DNA of 64,000 bases from Mytilus galloprovincialis (lineage: Eukaryota > Mollusca > Bivalvia > Mytilida > Mytilidae): assembly GCF_965363235.1 (NCBI RefSeq), contig NC_134847.1, positions 64,976,144 to 65,040,143 on the forward strand. Reading direction: 5' to 3'. Within the stretch, counting starts at the first letter, position 1. Each line of letters opens with the position of its first letter. The notes under the pieces were generated by a model. That model was not told where the DNA came from, searched no databases, and saw only the letters and a list, made by a program, of their open reading frames with translations. Positions 17,829 through 58,867 of the stretch are shown here, piece after piece. The position numbers and the translations under genes are program-made.

Positions 17829-19364
17829 GGACCAGTTTATATGCATCCAACTTATTGGAAAATACTAACAGAACTATATGAAGGGCTTACTTCCAAAGTA
17901 AAATGGATGGATGGACTTAGTGAACCATTTAAAATCAAGCAAGGTGTAAGGCAAGGCGGTATACTTTCAACACACTTATACAAAATATTTGTACAAGACC
18001 TATTAGTAGAGCTAGAACAGAACTCTTTGGGATATCATTTGGGAGACATATATGTAGGGGCACCAACTTGTGCAGATGATATAGCCTTTATCTCAAACAA
18101 CGAGTATGAGCTACAAGTAATGCTGAATGTAATAGACAGATATGCTAAAGAGCATCATTACAAAATACATCCAACCAAAACAGAAATAATCGACTGTTCA
18201 AAGCGTAAATCTAGCTACAGCTGGACAATGGGAGGCAAAGTCGTAAAAACATCTGAGTGTAGTGAGCATCTAGGAATAAAGAGAACAGATGGAAAAGAAC
18301 ATAACTTCAACATCAAAGAAAGAATACAAACCGCTAGAAGAACAAAGTATGCACTTATGGGTTCTGGTGTGCACGGTACAAATGGACTTAACCCTGCAAT
18401 CTCATACCAAATATATAAAACCTATGTAATACCAAGATTAACATATGGTTTAGAAGTACTACCTTTAACAAAATCAAATATAGAGGAACTAGAGATATTC
18501 CATAGGAAAAACTTGAGGCACCTACAGTCACTACCAGAAAGAACATCAAATGCTGTGGTACTACTACTACTTGGAGCATTGCCTATAGAAGCTGAAATAC
18601 ATAAAAGACATTTATCACTTTTATACTCTATATTATCATGTGACAACAGCAAAATTAAAGATGTTATGATTAGACAAATTGCCACTAACTATGACAACAA
18701 GAAAAGTTTTTTCAGCAGGATACTGAATATACTTGAGATGTATGATCTTCCTTCCATCAACTATTTGCAGAAAAATCTTCCAAAAAGAGATATATGGAAA
18801 GAAGAAATAAAGAAAAAAGTAAACCAATATTGGAATGCTCAATTAAAATCTGAAGCTCGTAATAAAACCAGTCTAAAAAATATGAACATAGAAAATTTAG
18901 AAATTGGAAAAACAGCTCAAGTATGGAATCTACAAAATCAACCACGACTTGAATTAAGAAAAGCAATTATAAAAGCCAGAATGATGACGGGAGCATATAT
19001 CTTACAGTCGGACAAACACAAGTTCACACACTTTGTGGCAGAACCGTTATGTCAGCTGTGCAATACAGAAAATGAAGACATTATTCATATGGTTACCTCT
19101 TGTCCAGTGTTAAGTACTATAAGAGAGAAATACTATGTAGAGATGAAAATGGAAATATTGGATAATATTGATCCAATTAAATGGAATACTTTCTGCTGCA
19201 ATAAGATGGAAATAACACAATTGATACTGGATTGTAATAATTTCAAAGAAACACTGAACATAAGTAGTGAACTCATGACCAAGATAGAAGAAAAATGTAG
19301 AAATCTATTATTCCAACTTCACGCAAAGAGAATAGAAGTACTGGATGCATTAAACAACAAATAA
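17829..19364 (+). mobile_element. 5'-truncated non-LTR retrotransposon (LINE), ORF2 3' half
   Basis: One uninterrupted frame runs from about 17829 to a TAA at 19364 (507 codons counted from the ATG at 17841). It enters in the middle of a reverse transcriptase: VRQGGILST at residues 36-44 is the palm motif before the active site, and CADDIAFIS at 77-85 is the catalytic box, with Cys where Phe or Tyr is usual. A C-terminal zinc knuckle C-x2-C-x8-H-x4-C covers residues 404-421 (CQLCNTENEDIIHMVTSC). The endonuclease and the N-terminal fingers are absent, as in a 5'-truncated insertion. The lack of stops over 1.5 kb suggests a fairly recent copy. The first kept base follows an in-frame TAG. A 3' UTR follows but its end and any target duplication were not identified. 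It cannot move by itself. Confidence 0.85.
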
Positions 19365-20917: not shown

Positions 20918-21019
20918 GGTATCCGGTCGTTCCGGCCCCAAGTCAATCCGGCCCCAAGTCGATCCGGCCCAAGTCGATCCGGCCCACGTCGATCCGGTCC
21001 CAAGTCGATCCGGCCCCAT
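20918..21019 (+). repeat. GTCGATCCGGCCCCAA minisatellite (left arm)
   Basis: Six to seven imperfect units with core CGATCCGGCCC. It is the left inverted end of the 4.5-kb element. The G+C content stands out sharply from the A+T-rich surroundings. Confidence 0.85.
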
Positions 21020-25336: not shown

Positions 25337-25438
25337 GCCGGATCGACTTAACATATGGGCCGGATCGACATGGGGCCGGATCGACGTGGGACGGATCGAC
25401 TCGGGCCGGATCGACGTGGGGCCGGATCGACCCGAAAG
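25337..25438 (-). repeat. GTCGATCCGGCCCCAA minisatellite (right arm)
   Basis: About six units of GGGGCCGGATCGAC, the reverse complement of the left-arm unit, forming the right inverted end of the 4.5-kb element. Confidence 0.85.
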
Positions 25439-28880: not shown

Positions 28881-31800
28881 ATGGGCGTGACTAAGCAGTA
28901 CCTGAGGTATATACCAGGGCCATCATTTGGTGTGATAGGTAGTCCTAAAGCCAACATATTATTCTTGGATGTCCGAGGAGTTAGAGGGAAATATTGTGCA
29001 GTGGGAGCTTGTGAAGATGTTATTGTATGGGATTTAAGGACCGGAGAAAAGGTTTGTCTTAGAATAAAAATTAGACTAAAGCAACAGCAATGTATAGATC
29101 ATTGGGACATCATCCTACCCAGTCTTCACGCTGAGTGGCATCCCAGGCAGCCCAGGATTGTAAAATTGCTCTCTGGCCTGTAAAAATCATATCTACAGGC
29201 CAACAGAATCTAACTAAAAATTTTCAAAAATTGAACTCCGGGCCTGTAGATTTAGCAGTTCATCGTGAAGACTGCCTACCTACAAATATTGAAAGACAGT
29301 TATAAACTGTAATATGAGATATGAATAAGAAATGCAAATGTTCAGCTTGGATACATTTAAATAGTGTAAAGTATCAAACAGGTTGGGAACAAACCCTCTA
29401 TATGGTGATTATACCTGTATAGAGGGATAATCCTTCTATAGAGGGGTAAAATTATCCCTCTATAGAGGGGTATTTTTGTTTAGACTGGATTTAAATCAAA
29501 ATAGGGCAGAATGGCATTCTCTACTTATTATGGCAGTAACCTGGAACAGTTGATGTACTTAATTTAATATGCACCATGATTGAAAGCTGTGATGATCAGG
29601 TAAATTCTACTCACTTATGCCTCACTGAACAGAATTTCTATTGTTAGATTTAACATGAAATTTAAAGGTCAACTATACCTTTTGTTGTTGATCCGGTGTT
29701 CAGATAGGTTTACAATAGATTGCAAGTTTTGTCACTTTAGGAGAAAACTGGTTATCCCAATTTTTAGTAAAGTGCATATGTTGATGCATATAATGCTAGA
29801 GATTATATCCAATATACCTAGAAAATGCCATTCTGCCCTAATTTGCTTTAAATCCAGTGCAAACAAAAATACCCCTCTATAGAGGGATAATTTTATCCCT
29901 CTAAAGAAGGATTATCCCTCTATAGAGGTATAATCACCATACAGGGGATTTGTTCCCAACCTGTCAAAATGATAAAGGCACACCCTTAATGAAGCAGAAT
30001 AATTAGCAAAAAGCACCATTTGCAGCTAAATTTGTACAATGTGTGGTCTTGACAAAGTCTCCTTGGTTAGGCATATATATAGACTAAGTACAACATGTAC
30101 ATCTACTAACAAGGACAAATACAGGATTATTGAAGAGTGAACTTTTAGTGAATTGAAGTTACTGCATACCGTGGATTCATTATTATTAATAGGATACCAT
30201 TTTTTGTCAAAAATCAATGACTTAAATTTATATACATGTAGGCTCACATGCAGAATTTTGCAAAACCAAGAAATCAAATATCCACCATGTCCACAATAAA
30301 GAAAGTTTTACTGAATCCACGAAAATAAATTAATCCACATTACAAGTACTTTAATTTATATGACAATTTAAATTTTAAGACATTCTTCAAAGCTTTTATA
30401 TAATGAAAGTTATTTGTAGACTTATAATAAAGTTACTAGACATAATGTTCCAATTACAATTTGCTTGTAGTTTAACACACTAAAGGGAGATAAGCATGAA
30501 GTAACAGCTTTAGCCAAGTCACCAGATAAGAAACATATAGCTGTAGGTTATAATGATGGAATGGTCAAAGTATTTGATGTGGCCAGTGGTGATCTGGTCG
30601 TCAATTTTAGTGGACACAAGTCTACTGTTACCACACTGTCTTATGATCACCAGGGGATGAGGCTTGTGTCAGGAGGAAAGGTAGGTACAAGTGTATAAAC
30701 AGGTAGACAAAATTATTTAAGGAAATGAAACATTCAAGTTACACTTTATTTAGAAATATCATTAAAAACCATATACTGTATTAGTGCATCAGACCACATG
30801 GTTAAAGTTACAAATCCCATTGCAATCAAAATTGAGTCTGTTATCTATAATTGATTGAAAGATGTTCTGCTGATTTGAATTTTACATGCTTCAATAAAAA
30901 CCAGGCTGAAAGTCAGTGAATGTCATGGGGGGGGGGGGGGGGGGGGGGGGGGGGGAAATACGACCAAAAGACAAACAACAGTATACAAAACATGAACCCA
31001 ACCATTTTCCATTGAATAGAAAATAGTAGAAACTGTCTAAATCTTACAAGGTTGATATAACAATTAACAGGATCAACAATGAAAAGAAAACCAACTTATT
31101 TTGAACTGTTATAAAAAATAAGTTTGACTATTATAGATTGTCTCAGACAACCAAATAGGAGAAGTTTTGACATAAGGCTATGAATAACAGTCATTTTAGA
31201 AGTATTTTCATCTGCCGGTTAAGTCAAAATTCCTATGTTTATAGATTAAGGGCATATATGTATCTACATACATATCTTGCTTGGCATGAAAGTAAACTAA
31301 TAAGGTATACATTCAACATTCAATGCAATAACTAAATAGAGTTTCTGCTTTATATCGCAGTTGATTCTATATTGTTTGATGGCTTGTAGTTAGTTATAAA
31401 TATAATTCACTTTAAATCTAATGTAGGTTTTGATTAAAAGTAACAACTGATTATTTGACTTGTCTATCATTTTCTCTATTGTAGGACACAGATGTCATTG
31501 TTTGGGATATTGTGAATGAAGCAGGTCTCTTCAGATTGAAAGGTCACAAAGGTCAAATTACTCAACTGTCATTTCTAAAACAGAAGGATGTTTTGATTAC
31601 TAGGTACTAATAAACTTCATTATATATATATATGTATACAACTCGTCTAAACATCAACCCAACAATGTTAGATCTGTAAATTTGCTTTCGCAAATTTTTG
31701 GTTCTTCCCTCGCCGAGATTCGAACCCATGCTACTGTGATATCGTGTACATACATACAGCTGAACTTAGAACTAAGAAAAACATGTTGAAGTAATTTTAC

Positions 31801-37800: not shown

Positions 37801-40800
37801 CATAGAAAATGAAAGTGGGAGTTTCAGGATGAAGTTTTTGGTCAAGGTAGTTTTTGATGAAATTGAAGTGCAATCAACTTGAAACTTAGTACATATGTTC
37901 TCTTTAGTATAATATTTCTAATTTTAATGCCAAATTAGATTATTACCTAATTTCACGGTCCATGGAACATGGAAAAGGATAGTGTGAGTGGGGCATCCAT
38001 GTACTTTGGACACATTCTTGTTTTAGGATTTTGTTTAGACTTCAGGCATTTGAATGATGTTAATAACAATTAAGTCTTGCTTGTATCAATTAGTTGTGCC
38101 TTTGTAAAAGATATGAATTTCCTTTTTGCCAACTTAAATTCAAGAGCTGATTGGTAAATACAGAAAAATCCTTTTACTTACTTTTGATATGGAAACTATA
38201 TTTCATAGTAAAATTTTTATATACATGTAAATTCATTGATATTTTTAGGTTCTTGCTTTGTTAAATAACAATACCATCGAAAGTTGTTGTGTAAATCAAC
38301 GTGATAAAAATGGGGAGATAACTAATAGTCAGAAGTTAATGATGGCTGGTCACCGTACTGATGTAAGGACAATATGTACCAGTTCTGATAATACTGCTAT
38401 CCTGTCTGGGAGTGGTGAAACAGTTAAAATATGGAATAGGTATGTTATATGATCTCTGATAACAAAAATTTAGATGTACTAGAATAGTTGCAGAAAGTAT
38501 GCACAGCATGCAGAATACACACTAAGGTTGGAAACCTTGCTTTGTTTAGGCATAAAAAGCATGATTTATACAATTACATGAGTACAAACTATAATGTATC
38601 AATAACATTTATGATATGATGACAGCTGATTTTCTTCACATAGAAGATTCAAATTTTATGCCCCCACCAAATCTGAGGGGGCATTTAGTGTTAATCTTGT
38701 CTCTCCACTCGTTGCATTACTTTTATGGTTCTTTGAGTCATGCTCCTTTACAACACTATATGCAAGTGGGGGCATCATCTGTGTCCCATACAAAAATTCT
38801 CCATTTATTTTAGTCTACTTTGTTGAAATAAAATTGCAGTTAAAAAGCCATCTTTGAATGTGTTTAGAATTTTACATTATTTTAATTCAAAGTTGTGTTT
38901 TAAGTTGCAGTTTATAAATATCCACACATAGTCTAATTTTCAATCCTTTTTATTTAGATCAACATTACAGTGTATAAGAACCATGGAGTGTGATTATGCT
39001 TTGTGTTCTTTATTTGCACCTGGTGACAGAATTGTTATTGTGGGAACAAAGGTCAGTAGATTGCACCTGGTGACAGAATTGTTATTGTGGGAACAAAGGT
39101 CAGTAGATTGCACCTGGTGACAGAATTGTTATTGTGGGAACAAAGGTCAGTAGATTGCACCTGGTGACGGAATTGTTATTGTGGGAACAAAGGTCAGTAG
39201 ATTGCACCTGGTGACGGAATTGTTATTGTGGGAACAAAGGTCAGTAGATTGCACCTGGTGACGGATTTGTTATTGTGGGAACAAAGGTCAGTAGATTGCA
39301 CCTGGTGACGGAATTGTTATTGTGGGAACAAAGGTCAGTAGATTGCACCTGGTGACGGAATTGTTATTGTGGGAACAAAGGTCAGTAGATTGCACCTGGT
39401 GACGGAATTGTTATTGTGGGAACAAAGGTCAGTAGATTGCACCTGGTGAGGGAATTGTTATTGTGGGAACAAAGGTCAGTAGATTGCACCTGGTGAGGGA
39501 ATTGTTATTGTGGGAACAAAGGTCAGTAGATTGCACCTGGTGACGGAATTGTTATTGTGAGAACAAAGGTCAGTAGATTGCACCTGGTGACGGAATTGTT
39601 ATTGTGGGAACAAAGGTCAGTAGATTGCACCTGGTGACAGAATTGTTATTGTGGGAACAAAGGTCAGTAGATTGCACCTGGTGACAGAATTGTTATTGTG
39701 GGAACAAAGGTCAGTAGATTGCACCTGGTGACAGAATTGTTATTGTGGGAACAAAGGTCAGTAGATTGCACCTGGTGACAGAATTGTTATTGTTGGAACA
39801 AAGGTCAGTAGATCTTAGTATGTCTAATGGCTACATTTCTGGTGCCACTATTTTCTCAATATTTAACTTTTCATAATAAACTGTTCTAGTACTTGGTAAA
39901 TGTCTTCATTCAATTTTACTTTAAATTCAACAACAATCATATTTGAAAAATGATATTCATCTGAAATATTGTTTGTTGAAAATTACCTTGCTTTTCCTAG
40001 CCTATTGTTTTATGTTTTAGTGATAAAGCTTCAGAAAATATTCAACCTGCCTTCTCTAAGTTTGGTGTATTGTTACCTTAAAGAAGCAGACAACAAGATG
40101 TTTATTTCTTCATAAAACTATTTTACATTAAACCCACTTCTGAATTTTTTATGATTTTATCTTAAAAATTAATCCCTCGTAAAAATTTATCACTGAACAG
40201 TATAGTTTTTTTATGGAGATATATATATATTTACTTGTTTATACTTTTTCCAGGGTGGTAAACTGCAGTTGTTTGATGTAGCTAGTGGTGTTTTGCTTGA
40301 GACTATTGAAAGTCATACAAGTGCTGTATGGGGTATATGTATGGCACCAGATAAGGTTTGTAGTTTATGAATACCAAAAGATAATATAGACAATAATGAG
40401 ATATCATTTGAAAAGAAGAAATATACACTGATTGTTGTTAATCTATTCTAGTTATAAAGCATAAAATTTTCTTTAAATATTGTTTTGTTCTTGTTCAACA
40501 AATACATTAGACTTCAGAGCTTTAAAATGTACTGGAAGCTCTTTCGTTTAGGGAAATTATTTTAATACAAGATAAAAAAAAAAACATTACATAATTGAAC
40601 TGTCAAGAATTAGCCCTTTTAACTAGTCAGTCAGTCAGTAAGTAAGTAAGATTATGATTTAATTGATTAACAAATAGATACTGTAGACATTACATAAATT
40701 CTAAGGCAAAATATTTTACCTAGAATTTCTGCACATAAAAGAAGATTGATTTTGTAATTTTTTTTTTTTACCAAGTAAGTATTTGAGAGAGTAAAACATA

Positions 40801-49800: not shown

Positions 49801-52800
49801 TGAAGTTAGAACAACATGAAGAGGAATGTAAACAGAAAGGAAAGGAGGTCAGTTATTATATTAACACTGTTCTTGGTCACATTACAGCTAATTTTATAAT
49901 GCATGTAGAGCATGTAGAGCAAGACTTTGGTTAGCTTGCTTGCTTTGTTTGTATATTGAACAGATATATCATGTTATGGAGGGGTATTTGCGAAAAATGC
50001 CAGTGAAGGGACTAAAATGTCCCGATCCGCCTGGCAAGGGAAATTCAGTCCAAAGACTGGTATTTTTAGGCAAATTACACCAAATAGATTTGAATTGAAA
50101 CTCTCTCTCTGTACAGGTGTAGATAAAAAAAAAAAAAACTTACTGGAAAGCTGTTATTCATTTACATGTTTATTCATAATTTTGAGGATAAGAGGATATT
50201 ATCATGGAACCACAGGATTTATAATAATACGTGTTAGCTCCTTTTTTTATGTAAAGCCATATCAAAATTTGGCAGGAAGATGCTCCAGAGGGTAAAAAGG
50301 ATTATTCAAAATGGAAAATAACATGGTATTTGAGACAAATTCACCAACAATGGTGAAAAATAGGCAAATTAGTTTGATATGAGGAAAAAATATTACAATA
50401 TGTGTAAAATACACTGGCTATCAACCAATCAAAGTCTTACTTTCTTATTTAAGGTGAAATTATGTAGAATATAGTAATTATACCCCCGCTTTAAAAAAGG
50501 GGGGGTATACTGTTTTACCTCTGTCTGTCAGTCCGTCCGTCAGTCCGTCCATCAGTCCGTCCGTCAGTCAGTCCGTCCCATGAAACTTTCGTCACATTTT
50601 TCTCAGGAACTACACATCCACCCTTTCTGTAATTTGGTATCAACATTTATATATGTCAGCCATACCGTGTGATGCGTTTTCAGATTCATCACTTGACAAC
50701 TTCCTGTTTACCGAACACTTGTCTGATTTTACACATGATAGCCAAGTTGAAAATTTTCGTCACATTTTTCTCAGGAACTACAATACAAGGATTTCTGAAA
50801 TTTGGTTTCAGGATTTATATAAGTCAACTATACCGTGTGATGCGTTTTCAGATTCATCACTCTACAACTTCCTGTTTACCGAACACTTGCATATTTTTAC
50901 ACTATTAATATTATCCACTTGCGGCGGGGGTATCATCAGTGAGCAGTAGCTCGCAGTTTCACTTGTTTGAATTACTTCCAATCAAATTTAAATATAATAT
51001 ACTAGTATACAGGTTTAACTATGCCTATAAATATTGTTTCAAGATGTCAATCTTAATTACAAATCTTTGGTAAATGTTTATACAAACAAAACAAGCAAGC
51101 CAACCATATTTTTTTCTCCACAAGCATTAGGAAATAAGCTGTAACTCAATTAATAAACAAATCGGTAACCAATTGACAAATAAAGTAAATTTTGTAAGTC
51201 ATCATTGTGCTCATTCCATGGTATGACATTCCATGGTATGACATAAGTTGTGATGATAGAGATTAATTAGGGCCCCGCCGACTAAGGCGGGTCGCCCTAT
51301 AGTGATCAGTCTGTCCGTCCGTCCGTCCGTCTGTCCGTCTGTCCGTCTGTCCGTCCGTCCGTCCGTCCGTCCGTAACACTTTAACTTTGTGTCCGCTCTA
51401 TATCTTAAAAACCGTTATGATTTCAAAGTTTATACTTGACATCCATTTTAACCAACACCAGAGGGTGTGTCATGATGTATGTAAAACTTCCTAGGTCAAA
51501 GGTCAAGGTCAAAAACTTTGGTTTCGGTTGACAACCCTGTGTCCTGTGGTGAAGATCGTGTCCGCTCTATATCTTGAGAACCGTTATGATTTCAAAGTTT
51601 AAACTTGACATCCATTTTAACCAACACCAGAGGGTGTGTCATGATGTATGTAAAACTTCCTAGGTCAAAGGTCAAGGTCAAAAACTTTAATTTCAGTTGA
51701 CAACCCTGTGTCCTGTGGTGAAGATCGTGTCCGCTCTATATCTTGAGAACCGTTATGATTTCAAAGTTTATACTTGACATGTATATGAACCAACACCAGA
51801 GGGTGTGTCATAATTTATGAACGACTGCCTAGGGCAAAGTTCAAGGTCAAAAACTTTGGTTTCAGTTGACAACCCCATGTCCTATGGTAAAGATTGTGTC
51901 CGCTCTATATCTTGAGAACCGTTATCATTTCAAAGTTTATACTTGACATGTATATAAACCAACACCAAAGGGTGTGTCATAATTTATGTGCAACTTCCTA
52001 GGTCAAAGGTCAAGGTCAAAAACTTTGGTTTCAGTTGACAACCCCATGTCCTATGGTAAAGATCGTGTCCGCTCTATATCTTGAGAACCGTTATCATTTC
52101 AAAGTTTATACTTGACATGTTTAAGTTTATACTTGACATGTTTATAAACCAACACCAAAGGGTGTGTCATAATTTATTTACAACTTCCTAGGTCAAAGGT
52201 CAAGGTCAAAAACTTTGATTTCAGTTGACAAACCCATGTCCTATGGTAAAGATACAATTTTTTAATGCACATTATTCACAGCGGGGCCCACAGAGATGGC
52301 TCCCATCTCAATGATATCTAGTTGAGTTTGAACATCTGTATTTATAATTCACAAAAAGCATCCTTACAAATGATCACTATAGAAAAAGTAATAATTTTAA
52401 AAGTAGAAAACTATGATTATCAATGAAGTATTTTGGTAGAATCTGTTTCTTATTCATATCAGTAACTCAATCACAAATATATAAACCTAATATGGCCACT
52501 GTTACATAGGAAAGAACATAGGGATAGATAAAGCAAAAGACATAAATGATGACTGTTTCTATGAACTATTAAATATATAAATCAAATACTGTAAACCAAC
52601 CTATTTTCGTGGATACTTTATTTCGCGGCTTTTAAAATTCGTGATTTTCTAATTTACTTGATGTAGATTAATAAAGATTTACTTATTCGCGATGATTTAT
52701 ATTCGCGTTATTTTTTTTCTCGCTAAAGTCGCGCAAACTAAATCGCTCGCGAAGATAAGTTGGTTTACAGTAGTCGCTAATATGTTAAGCTTGGATCTTT

Positions 52801-57085: not shown

Positions 57086-58867
57086 ACCTCAATTTCATGG
57101 ATCAGTGAACAAGGTTAAGTTCTTATATCATATACTATAAGCAATAGGTCTCCTATTTTCAACCGGATTTTTGTGACAAAAATGTCGGTTATTGATTTGG
57201 GGATGTACGGCGGGCGGGCGGGCTGTCGGGCAGGCGGGCGGCAATCAAATGTTGTCCGTGCATTAACTCATGAACCGTTCAACCAAAGCTTTTAAAATTT
57301 TAATATGTTATTACTGACAACTATATGAAGGTCAAGTTCAATAATGGCGATTTTGACTTTTACCGTTCAGGAGTTATGGTTCTTGAAAGATTGAAAAATG
57401 GAGTTTCCAGTCGTGTCCGTGCATTTAGGCATGAACTGTTCTACCAAAGCTTCCCAAATTTTAATATGTTGTTACTGATGACAGAATGGAGGTCAAGTTT
57501 AATAATGACGATTTTGACTTTTACCGTTCAGGAGTTATGGTTCTTGAAAGATTGAAAAATGGAGTTTCCAGTCGTGTCCGTGCATTTATGCATGAACTGT
57601 TCTATCAATGAACTGTTCTATCAAAGCTTCCGAAATTTTAATATGCTGTTACTGATGACAAAATGGAGGTCAAGTTCAATAATGACAATTTTGACTTTTA
57701 CCGTTCAGGAGTTATGGTTCTTGAAAGATTGAAAAATGGTGTTTCCCTTCATGTCCGTGCATTTTCTCATGAACCATTCAACCAAAGCTTTTGAAATTTT
57801 AATATGTTGTTACTGATGACAAAATAGAGGTCAAGTTCAATAATGACGATTTTGACTTTTACCGTTCAGGAGTTATGGTTCTTGAAAGATCGTAAAATGG
57901 CGTTTCCATTCATGTTGTTGCATTTACTCATGAACCGTTCAATCTAAGCTTTTCAAATTTTAATATGTTGATACTGATGACAAAATGGAGGTCAAATTTG
58001 ATATTGACGATTTTCACTTTCACCATTCATCAGTAATGGTTCTTGTGATATTGCTAGGACACAAAGAAATGTTAATAAATCCGGTTTGCTGTCGTTGGAC
58101 AGCCTCTTGTTGAGTATGGAATGATTGTCCAACTGGCAGATGTCATTTGACCTTTGACCTCATTTTCATGGTTCAATGGTCAAACTTAAATTTTTGCGTT
58201 TTGGTCTTTTTTTTTTATTACTATATTCAAAACTGGCTGCCAAGAAATAGCCTTAATGTAGTGCTTAAAAGTGGCGTAAAACACCCATTTTTTTTTTTTA
58301 AATCAAATATATTTTGGGTAAGGAATGATTATAAAGTGTACATGTCCAAACTGGCAGATGATATCTGACCTAAGCCCTTTGACTTCATTTTCATGGTTCA
58401 ATGTTCAAGTTATGTTTTTGCATTTTTTTTTTTTAATACTACTGGTATATTCAATAGGTAAACTATATTTGGTGTATGGAAATATTTTATGATATTCATG
58501 TCAATCTCGCAGGAATTATTTGTCCTTGACCTCATTTTCATGGTTCATTGCTCTGACGGAAGTTTTTTGTGTGTTGGTCTGTTTTTCTTAAACTTCATTC
58601 TCATGGTTCAATGGTCAATGTTAAGTCTGCATGGTGAAGTTTATTTCTTTTATACAATAAGCCATATGAACTATATTTGCTGTATGGAAGGATTGTAAGG
58701 TGTACATGTCTGTCTGGTATGGTTTATATTACATTGACCTTATTTTCATGGTTCATTGGTCAATGTTTAGTTCTCTTGGTACAAACTAATGACACTATAA
58801 GCAATAGGTCAACTATATTTGGTGAGTTGAATGATTTTAAGGTGTACATATATTTCTTGATTAGTTA
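57086..58867 (+). repeat. Array of TTGACCTCATTTTCATGGTTCA units
   Basis: Degenerate units of about 150 bases carry the block TTGACCTCATTTTCATGG, then GGTCAATGTTAAG, AAGCAATAGGTC and GTATGGAAGGATTGTAAGG. Copies start near 57086, 58157, 58379, 58525 and 58735, and the array resumes at 60244 beyond the 58875-60236 insertion. The Helentron-like repeat at 57161-58109 is inserted in it. Short frames in the array are not genes. Confidence 0.6.
57161..58109 (+). mobile_element. AACCGGAT repeat (Helentron-like) with five ~161-bp units
   Basis: The 5' hairpin is AACCGGATTTTTG with a TGTCGGTT arm. The 3' end has ATCCGGTT, exact inverse of the start, then hairpin GCTGTCGTTGGACAGC and CTCTTG before TT. 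After a (GGCG)n leader, units beginning GTCCGTGCATT start at 57254, 57415, 57576, 57753 and 57914, a period of 161 apart from one 177-bp step. Each unit has CGTTCAGGAGTTATGGTTCT. Confidence 0.75.

Follow-up and report, generated by a model that had tools for sequence, protein, structure and literature searches.

An exon end of the mussel WDR3 gene, together with the 5' splice site that closes it, stands in 17 tandem copies within the 64,000-nucleotide stretch of Mytilus galloprovincialis DNA analysed here (the window), and only the first of the 17 donors yields an intact reading frame. We propose that a duplication over the exon 11/intron 11 boundary gave rise to this minisatellite, that exon definition selects donor 1, that the later units are nearly silent, and that the array is one of a large population of such 'mirage' repeats in this genome; for the account as a whole we put the probability at about 0.72.

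The host gene was identified by homology. The translated exon that runs into the array matches residues 444-474 of human WDR3/Utp12 (7mq8_LQ, E 1.7e-12), and further translated stretches of the window match the same protein in the SSU processome structure 7mq8, with E 3.7e-224 against 7mq8_LQ for the joined frames and 3.8e-55 for the C-terminal part; homology to WDR3/Utp12 extends over most of the protein. Purpose-written spliced alignment to human WDR3, less certain at exons 8 and 9, placed 25 modelled coding exons at 28881-56535 on the forward strand. Exon 11 (38958-39051, 94 nt) closes precisely at donor 1, in phase 0. The final 38 bases of the exon form the coding part of unit 1, and each unit therefore consists of 38 exon bases followed by 9 intron bases. 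Exon 12 lies at 40254-40355, with its acceptor at 40253/40254. All 24 modelled introns are at least 270 nt long and none is 250 nt or shorter; intron 10 measures 518 nt and intron 11 measures 1202 nt, of which 450 nt are left past donor 17. WDR3 is an essential gene of ribosome biogenesis. The first-pass annotation had assigned the array to exon 11 of WDR3 and had read its unit as 38 coding plus 9 intron bases, and the 7mq8_LQ match and the spliced alignment bear out both statements.

Several other features were observed in or in connection with this gene. A search with the Utp12 domain returned one further place in the assembly (G000:C8:34600667-34600891, minus strand, L009), which has one stop within the matched stretch and is probably another Utp12-domain gene. 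A run of 29 G at 30927-30955, within intron 2 of WDR3, might form a G-quadruplex or mark a place that is difficult to sequence. Longer tandem arrays occupy 51389-52253 in intron 21 and 57253-58045 downstream of the gene; their periods are close to 169 and 161 bp, respectively, and to about double these values. On the forward strand at 17829-19361, a 511-codon open frame resembles, by eye, a non-LTR retrotransposon reverse transcriptase. Two arrays of 16-bp units located 4.3 kb apart (20926-21018 and 25357-25431) are built of GTCGATCCGGCCCCAA and GGGCCGGATCGACGTG, apparently mostly reverse complements of each other.

Tandem Repeats Finder (TRF) reported the WDR3 array at 39014-39813 with a period of 47, 17.0 copies, 98% matches and a score of 1516, the top score among 28 rows for the window. 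Unit-by-unit layout placed 17 units of 47 bp at 39014-39812 on the forward strand, the copy number, spacing and position first read from the letters being exact to the base. When the 17 units were aligned, columns 14, 15, 18, 29 and 30 alone were variable, and unit bases 31-47, including AAAG/GTCAGTAGA (a slash marks the splice point), were invariant in 17 of 17 units. The donor 9-mer AAG/GTCAGT is the same in every unit, from donor 1 (39052-39057) to donors 2-17, which follow every 47 bp (39099-39809; GT at 39099, 39146 and onward to 39804); the donors that had been described as near-identical are in fact identical. AAAG/GT is likewise present in every unit, and each copy is thereby bounded by AG/GT. 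Unit position 15 carries A in units 1-3 and 14-17 and G in units 4-13 (39155-39624). Given that A encodes an arginine also found in human WDR3, the direction of change as judged from the coding unit suggests that G is derived. Units 10 and 11 have one further change in common and are mutually identical, and in them stands an extra donor-like CTG/GTGAGG (39443-39451 and 39490-39498), of which the first copy was scored and the second follows by unit identity. When the 331 contigs of the assembly (1.385 Gb) were searched, a single candidate place scored, with at least 8 matches, all of them inside the WDR3 array; neither a second WDR3 copy nor another haplotype with a different unit number was found, leaving one array locus in the assembly.

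The consequences of using each donor were examined by simulated splicing, in which exon 11 was cut at each of the 17 donors and joined to exon 12 at 40254. Donor 1 gave 946 amino acids before the stop. With donor 2 the frame was shifted and closed within exon 12 by a stop at 40279; transcripts from donors 3-17 all included an in-frame TGA at 39118-39120. Thus, just as had been predicted from the letters, the intact WDR3 frame came from donor 1 only, and a premature stop from all 16 later donors. Donor strength as the basis of choosing donor 1 can be ruled out: because the sequences are identical, all 17 donors share the same predicted U1 pairing of −8.1 kcal/mol, a value that ranks 10th of the 24 WDR3 donors. 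The donor of exon 21 is likewise GTCAGT, and CTG/GTGAGG in units 10 and 11 pairs slightly more strongly than donor 1 (predicted −8.6). RNA structure as the basis is unsupported, since the predicted accessibility of donor 1 (0.0048) falls within the range of the other donors (0.0008-0.0099) and the predicted fold of the array was no better than that of shuffled sequences (z −0.39, matched or bettered by 6 of 20 shuffles). With donor 1 favoured neither by strength nor by predicted folding, position remains.

Among donors of equal strength, the one nearest to the downstream acceptor is classically expected to win, an expectation valid for splice sites that are paired over a short intron. In the portion of their paper available to us (PMC9225289), Carranza, Shenasa and Hertel report that long introns, with the exon as the recognition unit, favour the donor that lies closest to the acceptor of the same exon, intron definition leading to the opposite choice. 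In the minigenes described there, two identical strong donors (CAG/GTAAGT) 52 nt apart with flanking introns of 365 nt were spliced at the upstream donor and at no other. After weakening of both donors, smaller exons kept the upstream preference and larger exons were mostly skipped, and natural human pairs of near-equal donors showed upstream preference in only 60% of events; the proximity rule is therefore not absolute. WDR3 resembles these minigenes in the equal strength of its donors, in their spacing (47 versus 52 nt) and in its flanking introns of more than 250 nt. By contrast, the minigenes were designed and carried two stronger donors, whereas the WDR3 array is natural and carries 17 of middling predicted strength. 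Following the same rule, exon 11 would be recognised across the exon, with its acceptor paired to the nearest donor, donor 1, and units 2-17 would normally be spliced out with intron 11 and have little effect on the mRNA. Exon-definition proximity would explain the use of donor 1 without any special feature of that donor and would make the copies invisible, although the middle rank of donor 1 in predicted U1 pairing makes some leakage possible.

Minisatellites of this anatomy have been described in amphioxus, where, according to the accessible text of two reports (PMC3087553, PMC3902484), 'mirage' minisatellites lie over exon-intron boundaries of Adh3, troponin C and the globins BflGb6 and BflGb9, similar imperfect repeats occur in PGBD5, and regular splicing is undisturbed. 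The former source, as available, also describes interior units as homogenised and edge units as excluded from homogenisation (PMC3087553). The WDR3 array has the same anatomical features: a tandem minisatellite spans an exon-intron boundary, its copies carry the splice site, and interior variants are common to neighbouring units with ancestral units at the edges, a weak likeness with five variable columns. This unit pattern suggests that the array grew by duplication in its interior, with the edge units left out. It differs from the amphioxus mirages in its host, a bivalve, in having 17 units of 47 bp as compared with 6 and 3 in the available description of BflGb6, and in that mirage-like arrays occur at many genes of the mussel genome. 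We infer from the frame consequences that regular splicing of WDR3 is undisturbed as well. Among the records listed by a search of the open-access literature, none described exon-boundary minisatellites in molluscs.

Two other types of boundary repeat offer a comparison. In human segmental duplications, internal tandem repeats located at exon-intron boundaries can alter splicing; as far as the accessible part of that report goes, they belong to recently duplicated gene families in which splicing was changed or introns were created (PMC2812944). By contrast, the WDR3 array occupies a single locus, in a gene that is conserved, and its later copies are most likely silent. In the model of Rogers, as summarised in the available text of PMC3087553, introns are gained by tandem genomic duplication of AG/GT, and intron gain of this type is described for potato RdRp in the corresponding part of PMC4974935. 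The WDR3 unit resembles this model in containing AG/GT, with copies bounded by potential splice signals. However, the acceptor context before AAAG is weak, and we propose that the extra units are all intronic and would merely have lengthened the existing intron 11 without adding a new one. The minisatellite would accordingly have been born through tandem duplication over the exon 11/intron 11 boundary and expanded to 17 units via unit turnover in the array interior.

To see whether the layout occurs elsewhere, the genome was scanned for a consensus donor standing three times in tandem, either AGGTRAGT with gaps of 20-50 or AGGTAAGT with gaps of 51-81. The former gave 1066 overlapping matches as compared with 538 for the motif read backwards, and the latter 1809 as compared with 505. 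Counted by eye, distinct arrays on the contig C1 numbered at least 14 for AGGTRAGT (to 132.6 of 133.1 Mb) and at least 19 for AGGTAAGT (to 123.4 Mb), 3 being common to both searches, for a total of at least 30 arrays with three or more clean donors. We inspected the sequence of 26 of these 30. Homology identifies an exon end at the start of ten of them, and a further six follow an open frame only, with no homology match (one of them, L065, found no match among solved structures); these 16 arrays probably lie at exon ends. Pfam cut-offs were reached at five array exon ends (LMBR1, GDE_C, Fz, EGF_CA and PDZ), and five were assigned by matches to solved structures or by weaker Pfam matches, namely mucolipin (4e-11), prostaglandin reductase-like (about 1e-11), copine/BONZAI-like (2.7e-5), ITPR (1.9e-4) and RIC1-like (2.3e-6, below its full-length cut-off). 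The remaining 10 of the 26 showed no defensible, homology-supported exon end and do not enter the frame counts (L041, L043, L044, L046, L047, L049, L050, L051, L054 and L063); L049 and L051 lie in open frames resembling coding repeats, and the L054 array extends to the edge of the inspected sequence. Examples of exon-end arrays with the donor in their units are L042, L045, L048 (28 units of 57 bp), L052 (15 units of 47 bp), L053, L056, L058-L062 and L064. Extrapolation of the 30 arrays from C1, which makes up 133 of the 1385 Mb, leads to an estimate of roughly 300 arrays of this strict type genome-wide, of which 10/26 or more would lie at defended exon ends. Because the WDR3 donor GTCAGT is itself outside the search motif, the strict search undercounts.

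In all 17 arrays (the 16 and WDR3), at least one later donor equals or exceeds donor 1 in predicted U1 pairing, a result that is partly built in because the search demanded repeated strong donors. The frame outcomes of donor 2, by contrast, were not built in by the search pattern: its use would cause a frameshift in 11 of the 17 arrays, an in-frame stop in 3 and an open peptide insert in 3, and it is thus disruptive in 13 of the 16 arrays outside WDR3 and in 14 of 17 overall. In these 14 an intact protein is obtained only via the 5'-most donor, or if use of a later one is corrected or tolerated. The three arrays that are open in frame have units of 33, 81 and 72 bp and could enter the mRNA. 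Two of them, L061 (81 bp, PDZ) and L064 (72 bp, RIC1-like), stay open through the units inspected and could add coding repeats if later donors were used. Since 16 other arrays share the layout and donor 2 is disruptive in 13 of them, choice of the first donor looks general rather than specific to WDR3.

These results bear on a different reading, raised by the first-pass annotation, in which WDR3 relies on a finely balanced choice among 17 equal sites, donors 2-17 being used appreciably, their transcripts being sent to nonsense-mediated decay and unit number tuning WDR3 output. The 16 later donors do match donor 1 both in sequence and in the pairing predicted, each of them leads to a premature stop, units 10 and 11 add a slightly stronger donor-like site, and the 60% figure for human near-equal pairs in the available text of PMC9225289 leaves room for leakage. 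However, identical strong donors under exon definition were used exclusively upstream in the same account, and the same layout recurs at 10 other homology-identified exon ends on C1, with donor 2 causing a frameshift or stop in 7 of the 10. Moreover, unit lengths show no bias toward multiples of three, as would be expected if the ribosome never sees the copies (5 of 11 homology-identified arrays including WDR3, a small sample, p 0.52 against one third; 6 of all 17 arrays analysed). A finely balanced or tunable choice is unsupported given the minigene result and the 16 other arrays, and tuning by copy number is likewise unsupported, nothing examined having linked unit number with output; we regard leaky or regulated choice as an unlikely reading. 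Less likely still is a self-correcting array, in which a later donor is used first and donor 1 is then spliced to an AAAG, either one that closes a unit or the one at the exon junction, so that whole units are removed and the normal mRNA is restored; this would be intron gain by tandem duplication caught in progress. AG/GT does bound every unit, from GT to AG, as in the literature model of intron gain by AG/GT duplication (PMC3087553 and PMC4974935, in their accessible parts), and pyrimidine content before AAAG (0.47-0.53) falls within the lowest part of the range spanned by the 24 modelled acceptors (0.47-0.82). However, TTGTTATTGTGGGAACAAAG, which precedes AAAG, ends purine-rich and by eye looks like a poor acceptor, two other AG positions in the first three units have pyrimidine scores of 0.29 and 0.47-0.59, and such correction would be superfluous if donor 1 wins outright.

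The array might instead be kept because 16 extra U1 docking sites at the beginning of intron 11 would be helpful, for example against premature polyadenylation of the long transcript or to reinforce recognition of exon 11. Seventeen predicted U1 sites stand within 0.8 kb, none of them degraded, and the last 17 bases of the unit are unchanged throughout. However, just five variable columns are too few to show constraint, and the youth of the array would account equally well for the identity of its units; we hold this explanation to be very improbable. We regard an assembly artefact, with one or few units at the true locus, as no more probable than that. Tandem repeats are commonly misassembled; however, the ordered differences between units (A at the edges, G in the interior, and the paired units 10 and 11) are not expected from simple duplication of reads, the assembly is highly continuous (C1 being 133 Mb), and many similar arrays exist, each with unit variants of its own. 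Selection of donor 1 by exon definition, with the later units spliced out, thus remains the preferred reading.

The number of arrays on C1 raises the possibility that donors themselves are sites at which minisatellites tend to be born. The base-matched control TCCATTCA gave 7 distinct arrays with gaps of 51-81 on the whole of C1, two of them 12 kb apart with a unit in common. As compared with the AGGTAAGT arrays, and with C1 site numbers scaled from genome-wide counts (39604 for AGGTAAGT and 72798 for TCCATTCA), arrays per site amount to 0.54% for AGGTAAGT and 0.10% for TCCATTCA, a ratio of 5.4 (Fisher p 7e-5), or an odds ratio of 5.0 (p 1e-4) over an equal span of C1, in a test that has a single control, eye-counted arrays and scaled sites and does not separate splice sites from genes. 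With gaps of 20-50, at least 14 donor arrays compared with 7 control arrays, these being raw counts of degenerate motifs rather than counts per site. A second control, AAGTGATG, is dominated by one giant array and was therefore compared by overlapping matches per site, where the donor motif reached 4.57% and three permutations 0.69, 1.04 and 0.32%, in counts dominated by long arrays. As a rough background, 183.5 kb of sequence contained three arrays besides the targets and WDR3, one with a period of 59-89 and two with periods of 28-58; inspection of these three saw no exon end. The excess of donor arrays may come in part from arrays being more numerous in genes than between them, and we treat donors as minisatellite hot spots as a lead rather than a result. 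The wider proposal that Mytilus donors, and probably acceptors too, are hot spots of minisatellite birth, leaving hundreds of genes with up to dozens of near-identical donors that exon definition keeps from the mRNA, is a tentative one that we place below even odds.

The acceptor side was surveyed with the motif TTTTCAGG, which gave 275 raw matches as compared with 96 read backwards; acceptor-side arrays may occur in this genome. By eye, TTTTCAG is followed by ALERGIYFEI, an RPP30-like exon start, at G000:C1:65943514-65944247, and by GVFLHIMADTLGSVG, a zinc-transporter-like exon start, at G000:C1:101285114-101285545. On C4, a 770-codon frame contains 22 matches to the decapeptide of Mytilus foot protein 1, which supports a mussel as the source of the DNA.

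The WDR3 array is a further mirage of a known sort, and its interest lies in its copy number and in the population to which it belongs rather than in the regulation of WDR3. It represents a natural experiment in splice-site duplication, in which 17 identical donors take the place of the two in the minigenes. Should the population on C1 prove real, a single genome would hold dozens to hundreds of such arrays with varied unit lengths and copy numbers, in which the nearest-donor rule, its limits and its supposed need for long introns could be tested with existing types of RNA data. Gene predictors could misplace exon ends inside such arrays, a warning for annotation. If donors are indeed hot spots of minisatellite birth, the arrays of the mussel would offer a test provided by nature, across a whole genome, of the way in which the spliceosome decides between sites of identical sequence, and, with 3 of 17 arrays open in frame, a lasting supply of new exon ends and introns.
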